Source of the DNA: Bacteroidia bacterium | GTDB lineage: Bacteria > Bacteroidota > Bacteroidia > UKL13-3 | DNA: 62,430 nt | NCBI GenBank assembly: GCA_020049855.1 | Contig: JAGVLJ010000032.1 | Location: 1 to 62,430, forward strand | Direction: 5' to 3' | Shown: piece by piece, positions 323-48,703 of the stretch | How positions within the stretch are numbered: the first letter of the stretch is position 1 | How the letters are laid out: each line of letters starts with the position of its first letter | Notes under the pieces: model-generated | What the model saw: only the letters and a program-made list of their open reading frames with translations | Told to the model about the DNA's origin: nothing | Databases searched by the model: none | Program-made: the position numbers and the translations under genes

Positions 323-1900
323 TTACTTCAAATTAGCCATTGCTGCTTTTGCATCCTTATTTTGAGGATCTAGCTCCAATACTTTTCCAAAATAAATTTT
401 TGCATTAACTTTATCATTTTTTAGATAATAGTGTCTTCCTAAATAAGTGTATGCTTCAATCAAATCTCTCTTATATTTAACTCTATCAGTTGCAAGTTCA
501 ATTACCTTTTCATAATATACTTTTGCCTTACCTTCATCTGGTTTTTTTTCAAAGGCAGTATTTGATTTAGCCCTGTAAGAATATCCAGGAAGATAAGTGG
601 GAGCCAACTCAATCAATTTAGCAAAAGTCGTATCAGCTTTGCCATATTGTTTCATTTGGTAATAAGCGCGCCCCATCAAAAAGTAATCTACCGCATTGTT
701 GCTTGTTTTTACGGCCAGCAATTTCTCACTTGCATTAACGCATAACTGGTACTTTTTTGTTTTAAAATAATAATCAGCCATGAGCGTGCATATTTCTGTA
801 GCCAAATCGGCATCCATAGCAATGGCTTTGTCAAATTGCACTTGGGCTAATGAGTCATTCCCCGATTTCATTAACAACCTGCCATAGTATTGAAAATCGC
901 GGGCATTAATTTTTTGAGCAGGCGCTTTTGCCATAAACTCAACCATTGCCTTCAATCCGTCATTTACACTATCAATCTCGGCAGCCGATTGACCCAAAAT
1001 ACGATTGAGATAAATATTTTTATAATTCTGTTCCTGCAATTTTTTGGCCTCCTGATAAGCCAGATCGTATTGCTTATTGATTAATAAAAAGGAAGCATAT
1101 TTTAAACGGGCGTCATTGTTATTCTCAATCATTGAAAGGTATTTTTGATACGATTCAATCGCTTTTTGGGTTTGGTTGGAAAGAAAATAAAAATCCCCCA
1201 TATCGCGGTAAATTGGTGCCAGTGCAGGGTCCATTTGTAACGCTTTATCATAAAAAGGTTGCGCTACCGAGGCCGCACGTGAGCGGGTGTAGAGGTAACC
1301 CAATTTCCAATACGGTTTGGCCGAGGTTTTATCTTTATCACTGCTGTGTTCAAAAGCCCTTACTGCTTCTCCTCCATTCCCCAGTTCAAGATGTATTATC
1401 CCTAACAGAAAATCGGCATCGGCCATGTTTCCTTTTTTATCCAGGCTAATTACACGATTTATAATCTTAAGCGCATTATCGGCACTTTTTACTTCAGCAA
1501 TCATCATGGCGCGGGCGGTGTACATCAACACCAATGGATCATTCACCACCGTACACATTGCAAAAGCTTTATCATAAACTAGTTTTGCATCTTCTGCTTT
1601 TCCCTGCTCTGCCAATATTGCTCCATTGGCAGCTGTAAATAGCGCACTAGCCGGATCTGCATTCAAGCCCTTAGCAAAATACTCATTTGCCTTTTGAATA
1701 TTTCCAGATAACAACTGAGCTTCACCAGCCAGATAAAAATACAATGTTACGGTTGGCTGGGCATCAATTTTACGCTGAAACCACGTAGTTGCCTCATTGT
1801 ATTTCTCTATGTCAATCAAACGGAGACCATCTTTCATATCCTGTGGAAATGCAGAAATGGAAATAACTAAAATGGGTAGGAGTGCGAAAATTCGTTTCAT
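323..1900 (-). CDS. Secreted tetratricopeptide-repeat (TPR) protein
   Basis: The 525-residue product begins with a Sec signal peptide (about residues 1-19, ending ISAFPQD) and then consists almost wholly of TPR helices: repeated patterns such as A..YF.KGL..DP, YDKALQMDPALAPIYRD and YFGKVLELDPQNKDA. TPR arrays are protein-protein interaction scaffolds; here it is predicted to act in the periplasm or be surface attached. It lies after the TonB/PstS-like operon on the same strand, an order I believe is common in Bacteroidota, but an exact TAnnTTTG box at 1938-1945 suggests it also has its own promoter. The substrate or partner cannot be told from the sequence; a link to phosphate or TonB-dependent uptake is inference from position. 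Confidence 0.85.
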   Translation of the reverse strand: MKRIFALLPILVISISAFPQDMKDGLRLIDIEKYNEATTWFQRKIDAQPTVTLYFYLAGEAQLLSGNIQKANEYFAKGLNADPASALFTAANGAILAEQGKAEDAKLVYDKAFAMCTVVNDPLVLMYTARAMMIAEVKSADNALKIINRVISLDKKGNMADADFLLGIIHLELGNGGEAVRAFEHSSDKDKTSAKPYWKLGYLYTRSRAASVAQPFYDKALQMDPALAPIYRDMGDFYFLSNQTQKAIESYQKYLSMIENNNDARLKYASFLLINKQYDLAYQEAKKLQEQNYKNIYLNRILGQSAAEIDSVNDGLKAMVEFMAKAPAQKINARDFQYYGRLLMKSGNDSLAQVQFDKAIAMDADLATEICTLMADYYFKTKKYQLCVNASEKLLAVKTSNNAVDYFLMGRAYYQMKQYGKADTTFAKLIELAPTYLPGYSYRAKSNTAFEKKPDEGKAKVYYEKVIELATDRVKYKRDLIEAYTYLGRHYYLKNDKVNAKIYFGKVLELDPQNKDAKAAMANLK

Positions 1901-1937
1901 CTTATCTTATGTCAATCTAAATTAGGACGCAAAAATT

Positions 1938-1945
1938 CAAAAATA
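1938..1945 (-). promoter_or_regulatory. TAnnTTTG -7 promoter box for the TPR gene
   Basis: Minus-strand TATTTTTG, an exact match to the Bacteroidota -7 consensus, 37 bases before the ATG at 1900. No clear -33 TTG partner was seen. Confidence 0.5.
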
Positions 1946-1959
1946 AAGCCAAATCATCA

Positions 1960-2877
1960 CTATGGCTCAATCTTTACCAAACGAGGAGGCATGGATGCCG
2001 GTATTAATCCCTCTTTTAAAACCACCCGTTGCCCCTTATCATTGGTAAGGTAATTCCCAAACGGAAACCTCACCGTATTTCCAAGGGTTATCACAAAAAC
2101 TTCTCGAAGAAGTATATATTCTTTCGTGGCGATATACGCTTGCAAAGGCAAATAATACGAATGGGTATTAGGATTTTCCAATTCAAGTACTTTAACCTTA
2201 TCTAAAAAACTGCCGGCTGTGGTATCGTTATGTTCGCTTATCCAACTCATACCTATAATCCCAATACTATTTTCATTTTTTTCTACATAATTCACCACGT
2301 CTTCTGGCGAGTTGAGTGCAAAAAATGTAGCTGGACGTTTGTTTCCTTTTAAAAGTGAATCATCAATTTGCCGAATGATAGACGAATGTGGATGATCAAA
2401 TACCACTTTAATACCATTGGATGATAATGTTGGACTAAGTTGCTTCCCGCTATTTATTTTTCCATTTACAATATCATACAACTGCCGATAAGATAAATTA
2501 TCAACAGCAAATTTTTTACCTACAATTAACGCAATGGCATCTGTGGCTATTTTGGTCTCATTAAAAACTAATTGACGATGCCGTAAATCTTTTCTTTCCG
2601 ATTCATTCAGTTTGCGTGAAGCCACGATGAGACGGACGGAATCTACCATAAAAGATTTAAACAACTCATCCTCCGACAAAAAAGTTAGGTTTATTTTATT
2701 TTCGCTCCTCAGCCCTTCAAAAGCAAGTTTCTCCGATTCGAGCAGGGGCTTTAAGGTCATATCCCCGTAAATGCGACTGGATGGTGGCTGGTACTGCGAT
2801 ACAGTTGACGATGACCCGCATGATGCAGCCATGGCAATAAAAAATATTCCTGCCAATAAAAAAAGATTAATCCTCAT
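1960..2877 (-). CDS. PstS-like phosphate-binding lipoprotein
   Basis: A substrate-binding protein of the PstS/PBP-like family, about 305 residues from the chosen start. I use the ATG at 2877 rather than the longer open frame to 2961 because it begins directly with a lipoprotein signal (MRINLFLLAGIFF, cysteine in MAASCGSS); the longer reading would put another hydrophobic stretch in front. Family features seen are the K.FAVDNLSYRQLYDIVNGKI region and the GIIGMSWISE segment, like the hinge and ligand-binding parts of PstS. It overlaps the preceding small membrane gene by 11 bases and ends the exb-tonB operon. No pstCAB genes are present, so it may sense or deliver phosphate (or another oxyanion) to a TonB-dependent step rather than to a Pst ABC transporter; that is inference. 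Confidence 0.75.
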   Translation of the reverse strand: MRINLFLLAGIFFIAMAASCGSSSTVSQYQPPSSRIYGDMTLKPLLESEKLAFEGLRSENKINLTFLSEDELFKSFMVDSVRLIVASRKLNESERKDLRHRQLVFNETKIATDAIALIVGKKFAVDNLSYRQLYDIVNGKINSGKQLSPTLSSNGIKVVFDHPHSSIIRQIDDSLLKGNKRPATFFALNSPEDVVNYVEKNENSIGIIGMSWISEHNDTTAGSFLDKVKVLELENPNTHSYYLPLQAYIATKEYILLREVFVITLGNTVRFPFGNYLTNDKGQRVVLKEGLIPASMPPRLVKIEP

Positions 2878-3073
2878 CCGTATACTTATTTTTAATTCGC
2901 GCAAAACGGTAAATCCCATAAGAAACACAAACAATACCGATAAGAATGCGCTGCCATCCACTTAAAAAGAAAAATACGGCCGGATTAAAAATAATATATC
3001 CGCCAAGCACCGTGTACACAAGTATCATTAAATAACTGAAATACCTGAGTACGTCTGGATTTTTGGCGGACAT
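2867..3073 (-). CDS. Small two-helix inner-membrane protein
   Basis: A 68-residue protein with two predicted membrane helices (about residues 10-33, VLRYFSYLMILVYTVLGG, and 38-57, LSGWQRILIGIVCVSYGI) and a charged C-terminus (KNKYTDED). It sits 18 bases after tonB and overlaps the start of the PstS-like lipoprotein by 11 bases, so translational coupling is likely. I recognise it only as the small hypothetical often found in this position of Bacteroidota tonB clusters. Role unknown; a helper of the ExbBD-TonB motor or of the lipoprotein is possible from position alone. Confidence 0.7.
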   Translation of the reverse strand: MSAKNPDVLRYFSYLMILVYTVLGGYIIFNPAVFFFLSGWQRILIGIVCVSYGIYRFARIKNKYTDED

Positions 3074-3091
3074 ACTGCTTCTTATAAAGAA

Positions 3092-3901
3092 TTAATGCAA
3101 CTCAAACTGAATTGGTAAAGTGAGCTTTACTTTAACCGGCTTTCCATTCTGTAAACCTGGCTTGTAAGCAGGCAGTTTCTTTATTACACGTTCTGCTTCT
3201 TCCCTTAGCCCATATTGCGGTCCTTTTACAGCTTGTACATCTGTAATACTTCCATCTTTATTCACAACAAATTCAACAAAGACTCTGCCTTCTACTTCTG
3301 CAGCTTTTGCCAATGGTGGGTAATTGAGGTTTTTCTGAACAAAAGCATAAAATGCCTCTTCTCCACCCGGAAATTCAGGCATAACCGGTGCAAACAATAC
3401 AGGAGCCTCATCCTCCTCAATCACCTCATTTACCTGAGGAGGCGCTTCAATAGCAATGGTGTCCCCGTCTAAATTGTTTTCATCGCCAATCACCGCATTA
3501 TCCATCTCTTTAATGTCAACAATTTGTTCTACCACTTCTTCTTCCACAATTACCGGAGGGGTAAATTTCACCTCTTTCAGATCGGGTAGCTTAATTTCGG
3601 GCGGTGGCGGTGGTGGTGGTTTATTCGCATCCATATCGGGTGGAGGTGCCAGTTCGGTAATTTTAACTTCTACCTTTTTCTTACCCAATTCATCAGCTGC
3701 TCCGGAAATTAACCGAATAATAGCGGGTAAATAAAAGGCAAAAACAAAGGCCGCAATAGAAATTACGAATGCTTTTAAAACCACTTTTTCGTACTCCTTG
3801 CGGATAACAAAAGCTCCATATGCTTTGTTCCGGTTTTCAAAAACCAAATCAATACGTTCAGGGGCTGTGGCATTGTTCCAGGATAATTTAAACATACTCA
3901 T
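3092..3901 (-). CDS. tonB: Energy transducer TonB
   Basis: TonB carries the energy of the proton gradient, harvested by ExbB-ExbD, to outer-membrane TonB-dependent receptors. The 269-residue protein has a cytoplasmic N-terminus with the Bacteroidota-type start (DLVFENRNKAYGAFVIR), one membrane helix near residues 43-67, a Pro-rich periplasmic spacer (PPPDMDANKPPPPPPPEI) and a C-terminal TonB domain from about residue 175 (FPGGEEAFYAFVQKNLNYP... VEGRVFVEFVVNKDGSI). An AAGGAG stands 3 bases before the ATG at 3901 and 9 before the second ATG at 3895, so 3895 may be the real start. It follows the second exbD by 9 bases in the operon. Confidence 0.93.
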   Translation of the reverse strand: MSMFKLSWNNATAPERIDLVFENRNKAYGAFVIRKEYEKVVLKAFVISIAAFVFAFYLPAIIRLISGAADELGKKKVEVKITELAPPPDMDANKPPPPPPPEIKLPDLKEVKFTPPVIVEEEVVEQIVDIKEMDNAVIGDENNLDGDTIAIEAPPQVNEVIEEDEAPVLFAPVMPEFPGGEEAFYAFVQKNLNYPPLAKAAEVEGRVFVEFVVNKDGSITDVQAVKGPQYGLREEAERVIKKLPAYKPGLQNGKPVKVKLTLPIQFELH

Positions 3902-3910
3902 TTTCTCCTT

Positions 3911-4471
3911 TTATAATCCTGATATCATTTCAATTTCTTTGGGAGTAATCTCAACGATTGCATAAACAGGCACCTCGTTAATATTCATCTCATCCAATAC
4001 ATCAATCATATTTTTGTATTTGGCATCCTTATCGGCCTTAATAAGAATAACAACTTTATGCCGTTCATTTGTAGTACTTCCGGCTTTAAGTCTGGATTCG
4101 CACTCTTTTTTCTTTTCAATAATGGCCTTGCGCAAACTGTTGGGCTTGGTAGCATCAAAACTGGCCTGTTCTACCTTTGGTTCTTTAATACCAAAGTAAT
4201 AAAACACCCGGTTATTCTTGCTGAGAATAATAGTCATTGCATCCTCATCATCCACCTTTGTTTCTTTAGTTGGGTCGGCAACTTCGTTCTTATCTGGCAT
4301 AATCAATGGCATTGCCTTTGGTTTGCTTAATGTAGTAGTGAAAAGGAAAAATGTAAGAAGCAAAAAGGCCAAATCCACCATAGGGGTCATATCAATATGG
4401 GTGGAATGTTTCTTAGCCCTAATCTTTTTCCCCTTCTTTTTTTCTCCACCGGAGTCTTGTACTTCTGACAT
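3911..4471 (-). CDS. exbD: Biopolymer transport protein ExbD (second copy)
   Basis: ExbD is the single-span partner of ExbB in the proton-driven motor for TonB. The 186-residue protein has a basic N-terminus, then the family signature MTPMVDLAFLLLTFF with the proton-carrying Asp (about residue 32) in the membrane helix, followed by a periplasmic domain. It is larger than E. coli ExbD (141 aa), with an insert between the helix and the C-terminal fold (residues about 60-120), as is usual for Bacteroidota. The gap to the upstream exbD is 2 bases. Having two different exbD genes in tandem implies a hetero-oligomeric stator or two alternative ones. Confidence 0.92.
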   Translation of the reverse strand: MSEVQDSGGEKKKGKKIRAKKHSTHIDMTPMVDLAFLLLTFFLFTTTLSKPKAMPLIMPDKNEVADPTKETKVDDEDAMTIILSKNNRVFYYFGIKEPKVEQASFDATKPNSLRKAIIEKKKECESRLKAGSTTNERHKVVILIKADKDAKYKNMIDVLDEMNINEVPVYAIVEITPKEIEMISGL

Positions 4472-6099: not shown

Positions 6100-8028
6100 T
6101 TGCTGACATTAAACAACATCACTTTTGAATTTGGCAGCCGGGTCTTATACAAAGACACCAGTTGGCATATTAAGCCGGGAGAACGCATTGGTTTAATTGG
6201 CCGCAACGGAACCGGAAAATCAACACTATTGCGCATCATTTCAGGCGAATACAGTATTTCTGCCGGAAATATATCGAAGATAACCGGAATGACTATTGGC
6301 TTTTTTAATCAAGATCTTTTGTCGCTGGAAGTCAATGAGCCTGTTCTTAAAGTGGCATTAAGTGCCTTTGAACGGCAACTTATATTGCAGGAGGAAATTG
6401 AAGAGATCATTAAAAAACTTGAATACGACCACTCGGATAAGGTTATTCAACAACTTACTGACAAACAACATGAGTTTGAGCAATTAGACGGATATCGAAT
6501 TCAATCAAAAGCAGAAGAAATACTTGAAGGGCTTGGTTTTAAAACAGCCGACCTGCAAAAACCCTATAAAGAGTTTTCGGGAGGATGGCGTATGCGGGCC
6601 ATGTTGGCCAAACTGATTTTGCAAAATCCCGACCTACTGATGTTGGACGAACCCACTAACCACCTCGACCTTCCGTCCATTGAATGGCTGGAAGATTACC
6701 TTGAAGATTATGAAGGAACCGTAATTATTGTTTCGCACGACAGGTACTTTCTAGATAGAATGGTAACTAAAATTGCTGAGGTTGAAAATGCTCGGATTAC
6801 CTTATACACCGGTAATTATACCGATTATCTAGAACAGAAGGAAGAACGAACCGAGCTACAGCAAGCTCAATATGAAAACCAGCAAAAAGTGCTGAAACAA
6901 CAAGAGCGATTTATTGAACGCTTTCGTTCAAAAGCATCAAAGGCCACGGCTGTACAAAGCCGGATTAAAATGCTTGAAAAAATTAAACGGGTAGAAGCTG
7001 TTTTAGAAAATAAAAGTAAAATATCAGTAAACTTCTCGTTCTCTACTTCGTCAGGAAAAATTGTGGAAGAATTTAGAAGTGTAAGTAAATCCTATCCCGA
7101 TCTGGAAATTGTTAAAAATGCAAATATTCAAATTGAGCGAGGAGATAAAATTGCCCTGATAGGAGCCAACGGATTAGGAAAATCCACAATTTTACGTATG
7201 ATAGCTGGAACTGAATCGTTTACAGGAACTATTGAGGACGGATACAACGTAAAAAAAGCTTTTTTTGCCCAGCACCAACTCGAATCGTTACGGCTTAGTA
7301 ACAACTTAATTGACGAATTGTTAGATCATGCACCACTGAAAACAGAAAATGAGTTACGAACAGTATTAGGATGCTTTCTGTTTAGCGGTGAAGATGTTTT
7401 CAAAAAAATAAAAGTACTCTCCGGTGGCGAAAAAAGCAGGGTTGCACTAGCAAAGGTCTTGTTGTCGGACGCCAATTTTTTATTGCTTGACGAACCAAGT
7501 AATCACTTGGATATGCAGGCTGTAAACGTGCTTATTCAAGCGCTTAAGTCCTATAAGGGTTCTATGATAATGGTATCTCACGACCGTTTTTTTATATCAG
7601 AAATTGCTACCAAAATATGGTATATTGAAAACAAGGAATTAAAAGAATATCCTGGTACTTATATTGAATTTGAAGAATGGCATTTAAAACGGAAACTTGG
7701 TTTGGAACAAGAAGAAAAATTGCAAAAAAAATCACCGAAGCCTGAAATAAAACTTAAAGTACCCGATTTTGAAAACAAACAGAAACAAAAGGAGTTAAAA
7801 AAACTTAATCAAGAGCTTAGTTCATTAGAGACAGAAATAGAGCAATTGAAAAAAGAAAAGAAAAATACCGAAGGATTATTTACTAAAGAGTCAATGGCAA
7901 CAGATGCTAGTAGAATAAAAGCCGTTAAGGAAAAATACCAGCTACTTAACATGCAATTAGATAAAAAAAACGTTGCGTATGAGAATTTATTCAATCAAAT
8001 TGTAGATTTGGAAAATAGCATAAATTAA
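6100..8028 (+). CDS. ABC-F family ATPase (ribosome-associated)
   Basis: ABC-F proteins have two ATPase domains and no membrane part; known members bind the ribosomal E site and act in translation or antibiotic protection. Seen here: Walker A GRNGTGKST (residues 34-42), signature FSGGWRMR, Walker B LLMLDEPTNHLDL; then linker with the EQKEERTELQQAQYENQQKV helix; second Walker A GANGLGKST (about 355-363), LSGGEKSRVALAK and FLLLDEPSNHLDM; and a C-terminal charged coiled coil (about 545-642), as in Uup/YdiF types. 642 aa is normal. The start is TTG; no ATG exists upstream in frame before the promoter box. It is followed by the T9SS plug gene after 11 bases. Which subfamily and whether it protects against any antibiotic cannot be told. 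Confidence 0.9.
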   Translation: MLTLNNITFEFGSRVLYKDTSWHIKPGERIGLIGRNGTGKSTLLRIISGEYSISAGNISKITGMTIGFFNQDLLSLEVNEPVLKVALSAFERQLILQEEIEEIIKKLEYDHSDKVIQQLTDKQHEFEQLDGYRIQSKAEEILEGLGFKTADLQKPYKEFSGGWRMRAMLAKLILQNPDLLMLDEPTNHLDLPSIEWLEDYLEDYEGTVIIVSHDRYFLDRMVTKIAEVENARITLYTGNYTDYLEQKEERTELQQAQYENQQKVLKQQERFIERFRSKASKATAVQSRIKMLEKIKRVEAVLENKSKISVNFSFSTSSGKIVEEFRSVSKSYPDLEIVKNANIQIERGDKIALIGANGLGKSTILRMIAGTESFTGTIEDGYNVKKAFFAQHQLESLRLSNNLIDELLDHAPLKTENELRTVLGCFLFSGEDVFKKIKVLSGGEKSRVALAKVLLSDANFLLLDEPSNHLDMQAVNVLIQALKSYKGSMIMVSHDRFFISEIATKIWYIENKELKEYPGTYIEFEEWHLKRKLGLEQEEKLQKKSPKPEIKLKVPDFENKQKQKELKKLNQELSSLETEIEQLKKEKKNTEGLFTKESMATDASRIKAVKEKYQLLNMQLDKKNVAYENLFNQIVDLENSIN

Positions 8029-8039
8029 AAATTACAAAA

Positions 8040-9329
8040 ATGCGTATACAATTAATAATTCTATTATTTCTTATCAGTTCCCTCTGTTTAAAGGCACAGG
8101 ATGAAATAAAACAAATGAGGTATGAGAATTATGCATATGAAGATAATTTCAAAACTGTGTTACTTTATAAAAGTGGAGGGCTTGATCCCTACCCTGTTGT
8201 TAACCTTGCTACAGGAGAAACTCTTGAACTAAGCTTTGACCAGTTAGGTTCACAAAATGATTATTACCAATACACACTTATTCACTGCGATGCCTCATGG
8301 CATCCAACCAATATGAACCAGAATGAGTACCTTACCGGGATGAATGTAGATAATATCAACAATTTTAAGTTCTCCACAAACACCTATGTGAGATATGTTC
8401 ATTATACAGTAACCCTGCCAAATGAAAATATGAAGCCTCGATTAGCCGGAAATTACCTTATAAAAGTATTCAGGAACTACGATGAAAGTGATGTGGTGAT
8501 TACCCGAAGATGCTATGTGCTTAATACTAAAGTAAACATAACATCTTCTGTAAAACCGGCCACACTGGCACAGTATCGTTTTACAAAACAGGAAGTTGAT
8601 TTTGAAATCAATTATAAGGGATACTCAATTCCGCAACCATTTCAGGATTTAAAGGTGGTAATCATGCAAAATAACAGAGCCGATAACGCGATCACCGATT
8701 TAAAGCCGCAATTTATGACTGGCGAAGTATTGCAATATGATTACCAGCAAGGAAACCTGTTTGATGGTGGAAATGAATTCAGGTGGTTTGATATTCGTGC
8801 TTTAAGGGGAGTAAGCCTGAATGTGAGAAGCAAAACAAAAGACACTTCATCAGTGTACCATTGTTTGCTCAATTTTGATGAAGGCCGTTCGGCAACTGCC
8901 TATTTAAATTGGCAGGATTTTAACGGAAGACGCGTGATTGATAACAGAGACATGAGTGGCAGTAATGCAGGTATTACAGGAGACTATGCTTGGGTTAATT
9001 TCTATCTCAATAGCCTGTATAAAATACAGGAAGGTGACATTTATATTTTTGGAGAATTTACCGACTGGCAGTTGAAAGATGAGTTCAAAATGCGATACAA
9101 CAAAACAAAGTTTAGGTATGAAGCTGAAATTTTTCTGAAGCAGGGACGATACGAGTACATTTATGTGGTGCCCGACCCAGATGGTAAGCCTAATGAAGCA
9201 ATTATTGAGGGCGTACACTACGAAACAGAGAATGATTACCTGATACTTGTATACCATCGAAATCAGCAATTCAACTACGATGAATTGATTGGTTACAAAA
9301 TGGGTAATTCGGGTGTATTAAAAAAGTAA
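8040..9329 (+). CDS. Type IX secretion system plug protein (DUF5103)
   Basis: This matches the DUF5103 family, known in Flavobacterium as the Plug protein that closes the periplasmic side of the giant SprA translocon when no cargo is present. The 429-residue protein has a signal peptide (MRIQLIILLFLISSLCLKAQ), an N-terminal beta domain with the diagnostic YTLIHCDASWHP, EYLTGM, YVRYVHYTVTLPNENMKP and GNYLIKVF stretches, and a C-terminal beta-rich domain (IYIFGEFTDWQLKDE... GRYEYIYVV). Its presence fits the two T9SS cargo proteins in the window. Its stop overlaps the start of the next gene by one base (TAATG), so the two are co-translated, although QueA has no known link to secretion. Confidence 0.87.
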   Translation: MRIQLIILLFLISSLCLKAQDEIKQMRYENYAYEDNFKTVLLYKSGGLDPYPVVNLATGETLELSFDQLGSQNDYYQYTLIHCDASWHPTNMNQNEYLTGMNVDNINNFKFSTNTYVRYVHYTVTLPNENMKPRLAGNYLIKVFRNYDESDVVITRRCYVLNTKVNITSSVKPATLAQYRFTKQEVDFEINYKGYSIPQPFQDLKVVIMQNNRADNAITDLKPQFMTGEVLQYDYQQGNLFDGGNEFRWFDIRALRGVSLNVRSKTKDTSSVYHCLLNFDEGRSATAYLNWQDFNGRRVIDNRDMSGSNAGITGDYAWVNFYLNSLYKIQEGDIYIFGEFTDWQLKDEFKMRYNKTKFRYEAEIFLKQGRYEYIYVVPDPDGKPNEAIIEGVHYETENDYLILVYHRNQQFNYDELIGYKMGNSGVLKK

Positions 9330-43935: not shown

Positions 43936-45984
43936 ATGGTTGCCCTGAGAAAATATCAATCAGGCTGGTTATATTTGAAACTTGTGAAACGCCAAATAGC
44001 ATTTCTTTTATCTGCTTTCATCTTATCAGCAACAACGCATGTTAAGGCCATTGACAAATATGCCGTTCAGAATTTATTGCTTAAAATTTCATCCAACGAA
44101 CCGGACACACAAAAATCGCTTGACTACGGAAATTTGGCCCGACACTATAAATTTAGTTATCCCGACTCGGCCTTATATTTCGCCAATATCGCCTACAAAA
44201 TTGCGTTAAAAAACAAATTCATTTCAGGTGAGGCATATGCCATTAAATACATGGGGGAAATTTATTTGGAGATGAATTATCCAGATACTGTGCCTTCATT
44301 TTATTACAAAGCAATTCAGCTATTTGAAAGTATCCACAATAGTTTGGGAATAGCTGAAACTTATTTTGTGCTGGGTTCCTTTCATTACCAGCAAGGGAAT
44401 TATAACGAATGTATTGATTTGTACAATAAATCTGTTACCATTTATTTAAAACTGAGCCCAACTAGAAGAATTCACTATATCCTTAATGAGCTCGGCTCGC
44501 TGTGCTACTATCAAGGCCTTTACAAGGAAGCTGAAAAATATTATGCAAGAGCTTTAGCTTACGATATTAGGGAAAAAGATACGGCTATGGTGGCAACCAC
44601 GCTTAATAATATTGCACTAAATTTTGAGAAACAGGGGCAGAATGAAAAGGCCTATACCTATTACAAACTGGCCTACAAAATTGGAAAAATAACTCATTTC
44701 AACGATTTAATCACATCCGTATTAGCAAACATTGGAAAACTTCACATAAATACACGAAATTACCCAATGGCTGAGGCTGCACTTATTAAATCTTTACAGT
44801 ATTTCGATTCTTCAAATACCTCCTATGAACGTATAGAGATTTATGAGGTACTTACCGATATTTATTTAAAAAATAAAAACCTTACAAAAGCATCTTCTTA
44901 CCTTGATTCGGCTGCTGCAGTTCTTCTAATTAATCCCCTTCCTGACCTTAAAAAAAAATTAATGAGTTTGTATGCCAACTATTTTGAACAAAAAGGTGAT
45001 CTGTTTCATGCGCTCTTATGTGAAAAAGAAATTGTTACCATTACAGATTCCATAGAAAAAATAAATAAAAGCAAAATGGTAAAAGCCACCGAGCTTCGTA
45101 GTATTCTTAAAAGCCGAGAATCTGAAATAAAAAAATTATCAATAACCAATCAAGAGCAACAAGAGCAATTGAAACAAGGTAAAGTTAGTCTCATTTTTTT
45201 ATTGATTATGGCGCTTGGCATCACGGCTATTACCATTATTCTTTATGTAAGTTACCGATCAAAAAGTCAGATTAATAAAAAACTTGAAGAATTAAACAAA
45301 GAACGAAACACCCTTATGGGAATGGTTTATCATGATTTAAAAGCACCACTCGCTTCTATTCATAGTTTAAGTGAATTGATAGAATCTGATGGGCTAAACA
45401 AACTAAGCGAAGAACAATTAGTTTACAATCAATACATCCGCCAGATTGTAGATAATAGTTTTGAAATGATAAACAATGTAATGGATCTTAGTCGGGTATA
45501 TGACAAGAATATACAAGTGAACAAAACCAAAGTAAATCTGGCGGTCATTATTAAAACGTTAATTCAAAGTCATCGGTTTCAGGCGGCAAAAAAAGGAATT
45601 ACACTTATTGGAGAAAACATAGACCAAAATTTTGAATTTATCTTAGCAGATCAAATGCACCTGAAACGAATTGCAGAAAACCTGATTTCAAATGCTATTA
45701 AATTTTCACCTCCCAACGGCAAAGTCATCATTTCATTGCATCGAATTAGGGACTCACTCGAACTTCATGTAAAAGACGATGGACCCGGAATAAGTAAAAC
45801 CGACCAGCTGAATTTATTTAAAAAATACCAACGTTTAAGCGCATCGCCAACCGCCAATGAAAGTTCAAATGGATTGGGGTTATATATAGTAAAAAAACTA
45901 ACCGAATTAAATGGTGGGAAAGTTTGGTGTGAAAGCGAACCTTTGTCAGGTGCTACTTTTAAAGTCAGTTTTCCAATTAACTAA
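43936..45984 (+). CDS. TPR-sensor histidine kinase
   Basis: 682 residues in this order: N-terminal signal-like helix (IAFLLSAFILSATTHVKA), a periplasmic array of TPR repeats (about 60-370; GNYNECIDLYNKSV, GLYKEAEKYYARAL and others), a coiled coil, a membrane helix (about 416-440), a HisKA dimer helix with the phosphorylated His466 (MVYHDLKAPLASIHSL), and a HATPase domain (ENLISNAIKFSPP, DDGPGIS, GLGLYIVKKL). No response regulator gene is adjacent. The TPR sensor part suggests it senses a protein or peptide in the periplasm. Starts 7 bases after the FAD oxidoreductase. Confidence 0.92.
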   Translation: MVALRKYQSGWLYLKLVKRQIAFLLSAFILSATTHVKAIDKYAVQNLLLKISSNEPDTQKSLDYGNLARHYKFSYPDSALYFANIAYKIALKNKFISGEAYAIKYMGEIYLEMNYPDTVPSFYYKAIQLFESIHNSLGIAETYFVLGSFHYQQGNYNECIDLYNKSVTIYLKLSPTRRIHYILNELGSLCYYQGLYKEAEKYYARALAYDIREKDTAMVATTLNNIALNFEKQGQNEKAYTYYKLAYKIGKITHFNDLITSVLANIGKLHINTRNYPMAEAALIKSLQYFDSSNTSYERIEIYEVLTDIYLKNKNLTKASSYLDSAAAVLLINPLPDLKKKLMSLYANYFEQKGDLFHALLCEKEIVTITDSIEKINKSKMVKATELRSILKSRESEIKKLSITNQEQQEQLKQGKVSLIFLLIMALGITAITIILYVSYRSKSQINKKLEELNKERNTLMGMVYHDLKAPLASIHSLSELIESDGLNKLSEEQLVYNQYIRQIVDNSFEMINNVMDLSRVYDKNIQVNKTKVNLAVIIKTLIQSHRFQAAKKGITLIGENIDQNFEFILADQMHLKRIAENLISNAIKFSPPNGKVIISLHRIRDSLELHVKDDGPGISKTDQLNLFKKYQRLSASPTANESSNGLGLYIVKKLTELNGGKVWCESEPLSGATFKVSFPIN

Positions 45985-46625: not shown

Positions 46626-48110
46626 TTAGAAAAAAAACCTTACCCCAATTTCAGAACCAAGTGTAGTAAATTTTTGGGTAGCAGAATATCCCTTCTTATA
46701 GATGGATGAAACAGACTTTCGTAAATTGGGTCCAGCATACACCTCAATTCGTTTACTTGCCAAATAACTGACATAAGCACTCAAATTAAAATTAATCATG
46801 CTATGTGTAAACGGAGTGGAACCCGAAACCCCTGTAGCTTTGGCATAATATACTTTGAACGGATCATCAAATTTATCAATCAAATAATATGAGGATGTTC
46901 CAAAAAGATAACCAAAACCTGCACCAGTAGTTACCCTGCAGGCAATTTGTTTGTACAAAGTGCTGGAATAAGAAACTGTTAGCGGTATTTCGATATACTG
47001 ATAGGAATTTGTTATCACCTTTTCATATCCAGGATTGGTATAATAATCATCGACCCAAATGTTTCTGGTTATGTCATAAATGCGTTCAAAGTTCGCCTCC
47101 GCACTAATCTTATCCGTTACCTTACTAAAGTTAATTCCGGAACCAATGCTAAGTTGATTCAGCAGGGAATAGTCAACTTTAAAACCTGTACGATAGCCAT
47201 AAGATGTTTGTTGTGTCCTGTCTCTGAAAGCCTGATAAGTATCATTTGTTGGCAGGAACAACATTTTATCCGACTTATAGGTATTGGAGATTTGGTCGTA
47301 AGAATAGAATACCGCCACTGACCATGCCCCTGTTTTAACATTTTTAACACCTCTAATCAATGTATCCCTAAGGGTAACTCCATCCGAATCGGGAAAGTTA
47401 AACGCGGGCATGATTTCTTCTTCCACACTGGCAGGTATTTTTTCTAAAACGGGTAAAACCGAAGGGGAAACAGTGCTGGTACTTGTTTCATTCACCCTGC
47501 CAGCAACCTCTTCGTGTTCTTTGCGTGTTTCAGTTTTAATATTTACAAATGGAGAGAAGGGCAAAACTGTTATTGAGTGTTGTTTACCTGTTGAATGACG
47601 TATTTTGTGAACAGGATTTTCATTTATGGAATTTCCATTTAAAGCTGCGCTATTGAGGGTTGTTGCGGGTGTCGCCATAGCTCTAAATTTACCCGCTAAA
47701 TTTTGCCGTGAGGTATCGATTATTTCTTGTACAGTTACTTTTGCATCAATCACCTCTCTGTAGACTGCCGAATCTTGATTTATCTCAGCAGGTATTCTCT
47801 CGGTGGTAGCTATTCTATTTTTATGATATTGTTTAATATTTTCCTCTTCCGAAATTTTATTGGATTGCGGGAAAAACACGGTACTAACCGTGAGCACAGA
47901 AGCAGCAGCGGCATACCCCGCAAAGGTGAGTCCTTTAGAAAATATTGTTCTAATTATCCTTCCACTTTTTGATGCGGATAAGGAACTTTCAGCCGAAAGT
48001 TCATAACGAATATTCTCAAAAACGATGGACCGTGGTTTTATTTCAAAACCATCCGCCAGTTCTTGAATATTGTTTTCAAAATCATCCAATGGCAAACGCT
48101 TGTTCATCAT
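46626..48110 (-). CDS. Membrane-anchored beta-barrel protein, likely sigma-factor partner
   Basis: 494 residues with an unusual layout: an anti-sigma-like cytoplasmic N-terminus of about 55 residues (LDDFENNIQELADGFEIKP), one membrane helix (about 60-80; AGYAAAASVLTVSTVFF), a long polar periplasmic linker (about 85-240) and a C-terminal outer-membrane beta-barrel domain of about 230 residues (alternating hydrophobic strands: YGYRTGFKVDYSLLNQLSIGSGINFSK; final residue Phe). It starts inside the end of the ECF sigma-factor gene (29-base overlap), so the two are co-translated. Working idea: the N-terminus binds the sigma factor; the barrel may sense or span the outer membrane. Confidence 0.8.
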   Translation of the reverse strand: MMNKRLPLDDFENNIQELADGFEIKPRSIVFENIRYELSAESSLSASKSGRIIRTIFSKGLTFAGYAAAASVLTVSTVFFPQSNKISEEENIKQYHKNRIATTERIPAEINQDSAVYREVIDAKVTVQEIIDTSRQNLAGKFRAMATPATTLNSAALNGNSINENPVHKIRHSTGKQHSITVLPFSPFVNIKTETRKEHEEVAGRVNETSTSTVSPSVLPVLEKIPASVEEEIMPAFNFPDSDGVTLRDTLIRGVKNVKTGAWSVAVFYSYDQISNTYKSDKMLFLPTNDTYQAFRDRTQQTSYGYRTGFKVDYSLLNQLSIGSGINFSKVTDKISAEANFERIYDITRNIWVDDYYTNPGYEKVITNSYQYIEIPLTVSYSSTLYKQIACRVTTGAGFGYLFGTSSYYLIDKFDDPFKVYYAKATGVSGSTPFTHSMINFNLSAYVSYLASKRIEVYAGPNLRKSVSSIYKKGYSATQKFTTLGSEIGVRFFF

Positions 48111-48642
48111 TTCTAAATTTAATCGACAGTTTGTTTTGTAATATAGTTTTAGCTCTGCTGTACTGCGAACGGGAAGATGCTTCGGCTATTCCAAGCATCT
48201 CCCCTATTTCCCTGTGTGAATATCCTTCAATCGCATAAAGATTAAAGACGGTTCTATATCCTGCCGGAAGAGACTTAATGGCATGAATCACCTCTTCAGT
48301 ATCAAATTGCATATGAATAGCATCAGTATAACCTTCATCTTCTAAATTTTCAGTGTCCGATTCGTTTCTGAATTTTTTATTTGCTTTAATATTGTTAAGA
48401 GCTGTATTCACAACAATTTTCCTTATCCAGTGCTCAAGGGAGCTATTGTATTGAAAAGTGTGAAGGTTCTTAAATACCTTAATAAATGCCTCCTGAAGAA
48501 CATCCTCAGCTTCATAAATAGTTTGCATATACCGGTAACACACCCCCATCATTTTTGGAGCAAAACGATTGAATAACCTGCTTTGAGCTGAGCCTTCATT
48601 ATTGATACATGCGGCTATAAGCTCCTTTTCATCAAACTTCAT
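48082..48642 (-). CDS. ECF (extracytoplasmic-function) RNA polymerase sigma factor
   Basis: 186 residues: sigma-2 region (FAPKMMGVCYRYMQTIYEAEDVLQEAFIKVF and the DNA-melting W in SLEHWIRKIVVNTAL) and sigma-4 helix-turn-helix (IKSLPAGYRTVFNLYAIEGYSHREIGEMLG). It overlaps the membrane-anchored barrel gene, its likely regulator. A TACCTTTG box lies 53 bases upstream. Targets are unknown; no repeated non-consensus promoter that could be its own was noticed in the window. Confidence 0.93.
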   Translation of the reverse strand: MKFDEKELIAACINNEGSAQSRLFNRFAPKMMGVCYRYMQTIYEAEDVLQEAFIKVFKNLHTFQYNSSLEHWIRKIVVNTALNNIKANKKFRNESDTENLEDEGYTDAIHMQFDTEEVIHAIKSLPAGYRTVFNLYAIEGYSHREIGEMLGIAEASSRSQYSRAKTILQNKLSIKFRNDEQAFAIG

Positions 48643-48695
48643 ATAGAAGACACAACTGTTGGTAAAGACAAAAGAAATTGCTTAATTGCTGCTTG

Positions 48696-48703
48696 CAAAG
48701 GTA
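48696..48703 (-). promoter_or_regulatory. TAnnTTTG -7 box for the ECF sigma-factor gene
   Basis: Minus-strand TACCTTTG, exact, 53 bases before the ATG at 48642. Confidence 0.5.

Follow-up and report, generated by a model that had tools for sequence, protein, structure and literature searches.

A probable Dma/Reo-type anti-sigma factor reaching from the cytoplasm to the outer membrane, encoded beside an ECF sigma factor gene outside Bacteroides

Can a single polypeptide, with no additional receptor, tie a cytoplasmic ECF sigma factor to the outer membrane? The question is raised by a locus in a Bacteroidia bacterium of the UKL13-3 lineage (assembly GCA_020049855.1, contig JAGVLJ010000032.1), the whole analyzed stretch of which, 62,430 nucleotides long, is referred to here as the window. 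An original prediction had given the product of a gene overlapping that of an ECF sigma factor an anti-sigma-like N terminus with a cytoplasmic start, one inner-membrane helix, a long periplasmic linker, and a C-terminal outer-membrane barrel.

The gene pair and the anatomy of the 494-aa protein

The pair and its upstream element are laid out as follows.

48694..48703, minus strand: TACCTTTGCA, resembling a housekeeping −7 element, kept in three species of the genus
48082..48642, minus strand: ECF sigma factor gene, 186 aa (Sigma70_r2, E 9.8e-14; Sigma70_r4_2, E 5.5e-14)
46626..48110, minus strand: gene for the 494-aa putative Dma-type (dual membrane-spanning) anti-sigma factor, from fold and profile match
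48082..48110, minus strand: overlap of the two reading frames, 29 bases, from frame coordinates

As assessed by Pfam, regions 2 and 4 are both present in the sigma factor. The ATG of its partner lies 29 bases inside the sigma gene, so the two genes do overlap as predicted. This overlap, which in relatives is mostly 4–29 bases, suggests that translation of the two genes is coupled. The housekeeping −7 element of Bacteroidota is TAnnTTTG, and the conservation of TACCTTTGCA, ∼60 bases 5' of the sigma start, suggests that the pair is steadily expressed from a housekeeping promoter. A housekeeping-like rather than autoregulated-like upstream element is a point against the explanation that we favor below. 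The genes flanking the pair encode a histidine kinase with TPR repeats and a GNAT acetyltransferase. The kinase gene (43936-45984, plus strand) is convergent to the pair at a distance of ∼640 bases, and the best NCBIfam match of its product is FimS, below the FimS cut-off.

The 494-aa protein was modeled with AlphaFold from an alignment of 46 relatives (mean pLDDT 68.8, pTM 0.54), and four parts can be delineated.

47967..48110, minus strand: two-helix cytoplasmic head, residues 1–48, presumed to bind the sigma factor (helices and profile match)
47871..47942, minus strand: single inner-membrane helix, residues 57–80, with basic residues on its N-terminal side
47343..47870, minus strand: periplasmic tether, residues 81–256, fast-changing
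46629..47342, minus strand: predicted eight-stranded outer-membrane β-barrel, residues 257–494, last residue Phe (AlphaFold, structure match, and profile)

The head consists of predicted helices at residues 8–20 and 28–45. It is followed by a long helix (48–79) that contains the sole hydropathy peak of the protein, a stretch at residues 61–79 that is only moderately hydrophobic (mean 1.55 over 19 residues), which counts against the explanation favored below. Most of residues 84–240 have no predicted structure, with pLDDT mostly <50, which makes the tether ∼160 disordered residues long. The barrel strands (263–493) are predicted with pLDDT mostly 90–98. When compared with solved structures, the barrel resembles OprF (4rlc, Z 18.7), the transmembrane domain of OmpA (1qjp, Z 17.5, 2.4 Å over 136 residues), and OmpW (Z 16.6). 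The model, hydropathy, and structural matches bear out the predicted order of parts, with a C-terminal region that is modeled as an OmpA-like eight-stranded outer-membrane barrel and not as a soluble or inner-membrane domain. The whole-chain pTM of 0.54 means that the placement of the parts relative to each other is not fixed by this model.

Searches with the single protein were much less informative. Pfam returned only OMP_b-brl_2, below its cut-off (E 0.041) and over the barrel part alone, and neither Pfam nor NCBIfam gave a match to an anti-sigma family. An initial scan of contigs with the protein itself as query found no relative. A search of solved-structure sequences gave no match with the single protein; with the family profile, neither a barrel nor an anti-sigma factor was matched below E 0.2.

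Homology, gene pairing, and relation to the Dma/Reo class

Profile searches revealed the family. A leave-one-out profile built from 46 relatives, with the 494-aa protein excluded, matches that protein at E 9e-38 over residues 2–492. Its parts are also matched alone, the barrel at E 3e-26 and the head at E 2e-6, the best of 400 shuffles reaching 0.02. The reading frame is uninterrupted and has been retained in two congeneric species, with 72% identity in the first; in the second, identity is 57% in the head, 14% in the tether, and 38% in the barrel. The nearest relative, from another species of the genus, displays 94, 47, and 83% identity in head, tether, and barrel, respectively. Conservation at both ends, with a tether that can vary freely, is the pattern expected of a flexible link that joins two working ends. 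Among NCBIfam anti-sigma models, a match was obtained for only 2 of the 47 family members; the model matching two members bears the name of NF052375 (anti-sigma factor), which itself has no match in the window's own genome.

To see the pairing from the side of the sigma factor, 84,980 species genomes were searched with a sigma-factor profile alone, and 80 loci were kept. In 76 of these, chosen by sigma similarity alone, a head-bearing gene lies directly downstream of the sigma gene; the remaining four consist of one locus at a contig edge and three with partners just below threshold. Homology of the head, together with this pairing, supports the predicted anti-sigma-like N terminus paired with a sigma factor. 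The C termini of the partners in the 80 loci comprise 55 barrels, 9 type IX secretion (T9SS) C-terminal domains, 10 that are neither, and 2 that are cut off. The head was found at E ≤ 0.01 in 28 of 30 partners with quite different C termini. Eight apparent decoy matches at the same threshold, the own true partner of which was absent from the target list, were not counted as false positives. Within the window's own genome, where 12 ECF genes were examined, every one of the seven genes of the group is adjoined by a partner that the family profile recognizes, which is true of none of the five others. The head match is significant in six of the seven partners, the seventh (219 residues) scoring E 3.5 with the head alone. 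In a co-divergence comparison, the head did not stand out as the part tracking the sigma factor (r 0.73 for sigma and head, r 0.88 for sigma and barrel; 45 of 100 equally short barrel stretches matched the head's value), so we infer head–sigma contact from gene pairing and homology.

Two variations on the partner were observed. The head may be in tandem, with two or three copies before the membrane helix, and multiple copies were counted in 16 of 100 partners (loci L008, L011, L013, L016, L018, L020, L023, L027, L030, L075, L094, L095, and L102). Short partners of ∼240–330 aa with head and helix have no recognizable outer part (L107, L110, L111, L115, L117, L121, L123, and L124).

The original prediction implied that a receptor-free tie between a sigma factor and the outer membrane would be new, but such a class is already in the literature. 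Dma1, Dma2, and Dma3 of Bacteroides thetaiotaomicron, with their Das sigma factors, are described in PMC13088901, which cites Pardue et al. (2024, PNAS). Dma/Reo proteins have been proposed to connect the cytoplasm physically and directly with the outer membrane (PMC13088901, PMC13114119). Homology to the Bacteroides type was assessed using four pairs, two from B. finegoldii and one each from Parabacteroides distasonis and Phocaeicola massiliensis. The family profile recovers all four partners (E 2e-19 to 8e-45), covering nearly the whole length of the three best-scoring ones, and the window sigma profile recovers the sigma factors of three of the four pairs (E 1e-43 to 2e-63). Head and barrel are homologous to those of Bacteroides-type pairs. 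One B. finegoldii pair, with a sigma gene scoring E 1e-47 against the window sigma profile, is adjoined by a NigD-like gene, as expected of the Dma1/Reo type, since NigD genes are part of the published Dma1/Reo regulons (PMC13088901, PMC13114119). The Bacteroidales records annotate the partners as outer membrane beta-barrel protein or porin family protein. Three records filed as plasmids of B. finegoldii or P. distasonis, NZ_OY725915.1 (L168), NZ_OY725762.1 (L169), and NZ_OY725958.1 (L170), carry chromosome-like genes (nadC, queF, and rlmH) together with sigma/anti-sigma pairs, and their plasmid label may be wrong.

The window protein shares with the Dma family a head, one helix, a long disordered tether, a C-terminal barrel, and an adjacent ECF sigma gene. 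The likeness to Dma1 and Dma2 is by published description, whereas sequence homology is through the other Bacteroidales pairs. The window pair differs in that it is not from Bacteroides, has no NigD-like or PUL gene directly beside it, and has an anti-sigma gene that overlaps the sigma gene by 29 bases. A nearby known system is Reo with EcfO in B. fragilis and Phocaeicola vulgatus (PMC9308784, PMC13114119), in which a large anti-sigma factor, predicted to reach from the cytoplasm to the cell surface, is likewise encoded directly downstream of the sigma gene; its stress response is known from experiment, whereas the window pair is presumed to have one. As in FecI/FecR/FecA, an outer-membrane signal would be carried to an ECF sigma factor, but there the outer-membrane part is a separate receptor, whereas here it would be part of the same chain, and no TonB-dependent receptor gene is adjacent to the pair. 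FecR/TonB-dependent signaling was considered and rejected, as there is no FecR match and the sigma factor scores 87 of 126 bits, below the TIGR02985 cut-off. Class I anti-sigma domain (ASDI) proteins also have a short cytoplasmic helical domain followed by one membrane helix, but the window protein has no Pfam or NCBIfam match to known anti-sigma families. On the profile evidence, the window protein is best classified as a Dma/Reo-type anti-sigma factor outside Bacteroides, belonging to a class that has been published.

Three other explanations were weighed. The one that survives best, although it is unlikely, is that the chain is cut early: the helix would be a late signal sequence, the barrel would go to the outer membrane as an ordinary barrel, and the head would be a separate anti-sigma factor, with no bridge at rest. 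A disordered, fast-changing tether would be easily cut, and the 10 partners of the same sigma group without an outer part suggest that the head can work alone. However, head, helix, and barrel form one fused frame in the 55 barrel-type loci, which are spread across the phylum, and the homologues in the literature are said to extend through every compartment (PMC13114119). That the partner assists the sigma factor as a positive co-factor and does not inhibit it is very improbable; the sign of control cannot be read from sequence alone, but in homologues the regulon is switched on when the partner gene is disrupted (PMC9308784, PMC13088901), and such a disruption is reported to set the sigma factor free (PMC9308784, PMC13114119). 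Least credible of all is an ordinary outer-membrane barrel that has no connection with the overlapping sigma gene and whose N-terminal extension arose by chance. Barrels of this family do abound in Bacteroidota, and no part outside the barrel is covered by the Pfam match, but the head is conserved in its own right, also with different C termini, and lies beside the same sigma group at nearly all loci. Taken together, these findings make it very probable that the pair consists of an ECF sigma factor and a Dma/Reo-type anti-sigma factor, with its head at the inner membrane and its barrel in the outer membrane.

Partners ending in type IX secretion domains

Some partners end in domains of a different kind. 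Of 24 partners lacking the barrel, 10 have a CHU_C domain according to Pfam (best E 7e-17). The partners in the window's own genome include three of the barrel type and three of the T9SS type, and the latter (L126, L127, and L132) contain PKD domains and a T9SS sorting domain; their coordinates below are those within each locus.

962-2602, minus strand: T9SS-ended partner L126 (Por_Secre_tail, E 3e-4, below its cut-off)
2794-4104, plus strand: T9SS-ended partner L127 (CHU_C, E 1e-14)
6661-8235, plus strand: T9SS-ended partner L132 (Por_Secre_tail, E 1.6e-6)

A profile built from barrel-type heads only matches the heads of these three proteins at E 6e-7 to 5e-6, and SprA, a component of the T9SS translocon, is also encoded in this genome (E 7e-166). 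In two congeneric species, three other genomes of the family, and two other families, L127 has full-length relatives that are encoded after a sigma gene. The model of another such partner, L091, displays two short N-terminal helices and folded C-terminal β-domains, which resemble the PKD and T9SS domains of PorU and PorZ with modest Z scores (7.6–8.2). Besides L126, L127, and L132, partners with head, one helix, and a CHU_C or Por_Secre_tail end were observed at L048, L057, L076, L082, L083, L091, L093, L101, and L103, and the same form at L137–L140, L145, L154, and L156.

These profile comparisons show one shared head joined to two predicted kinds of outer end. In the literature library searched, we found no report of an anti-sigma factor with a T9SS C-terminal domain, which is not proof of novelty. 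The nearest published case is that of PorA, which is a CTD protein in its own right and influences SigP by way of PorXY (PMC7712824). A tentative view, to which we give somewhat less than an even chance, is that the partners are a modular set of trans-envelope anti-sigma factors, whose outer ends are clients of BAM or of the T9SS (the latter often with PKD domains) and report their own export. Failure of BAM or the T9SS, or outer-membrane damage, would then leave the chain unanchored, the head would be lost, and the sigma factor would be freed.

Proposed mechanism and significance

For the window pair, a direct, receptor-free tie between sigma factor and outer membrane fits the data. The two-helix head would hold the sigma factor at the inner membrane, where the single helix would anchor the chain with its N terminus inside, while the disordered tether would cross the periplasm to a barrel inserted in the outer membrane. 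Upon outer-membrane damage or failed barrel assembly, the head would be set loose or degraded, the likeliest route being cleavage first in the tether and then in the inner-membrane part, and the freed sigma factor would switch on envelope-repair genes. Repression of the sigma factor and a response to outer-membrane stress are inferred from the published genetics of homologues. That proteolysis is involved, and that the signal is barrel assembly, is purely our conjecture. The toxin BcpT and bacteroidetocin A strongly induce the homologous pair, and the target of bacteroidetocin A is BamA (PMC9308784, PMC13114119), which in our view makes failed barrel assembly an attractive signal.

These findings extend the Dma/Reo design well beyond gut Bacteroides, to a sigma group with head-bearing partners across Bacteroidota that has seven members in the one genome of the window. 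They also bear on the low proportion of Bacteroidetes ECFs, only 6%, for which a recognizable ASDI neighbor has been reported (PMC7406223). The T9SS-ended relatives offer a direct way to ask if these proteins monitor the functioning of the system by which their outer end is exported. The result that most deserves pursuit is that, inside a single genome, a common head is combined with different outer ends.
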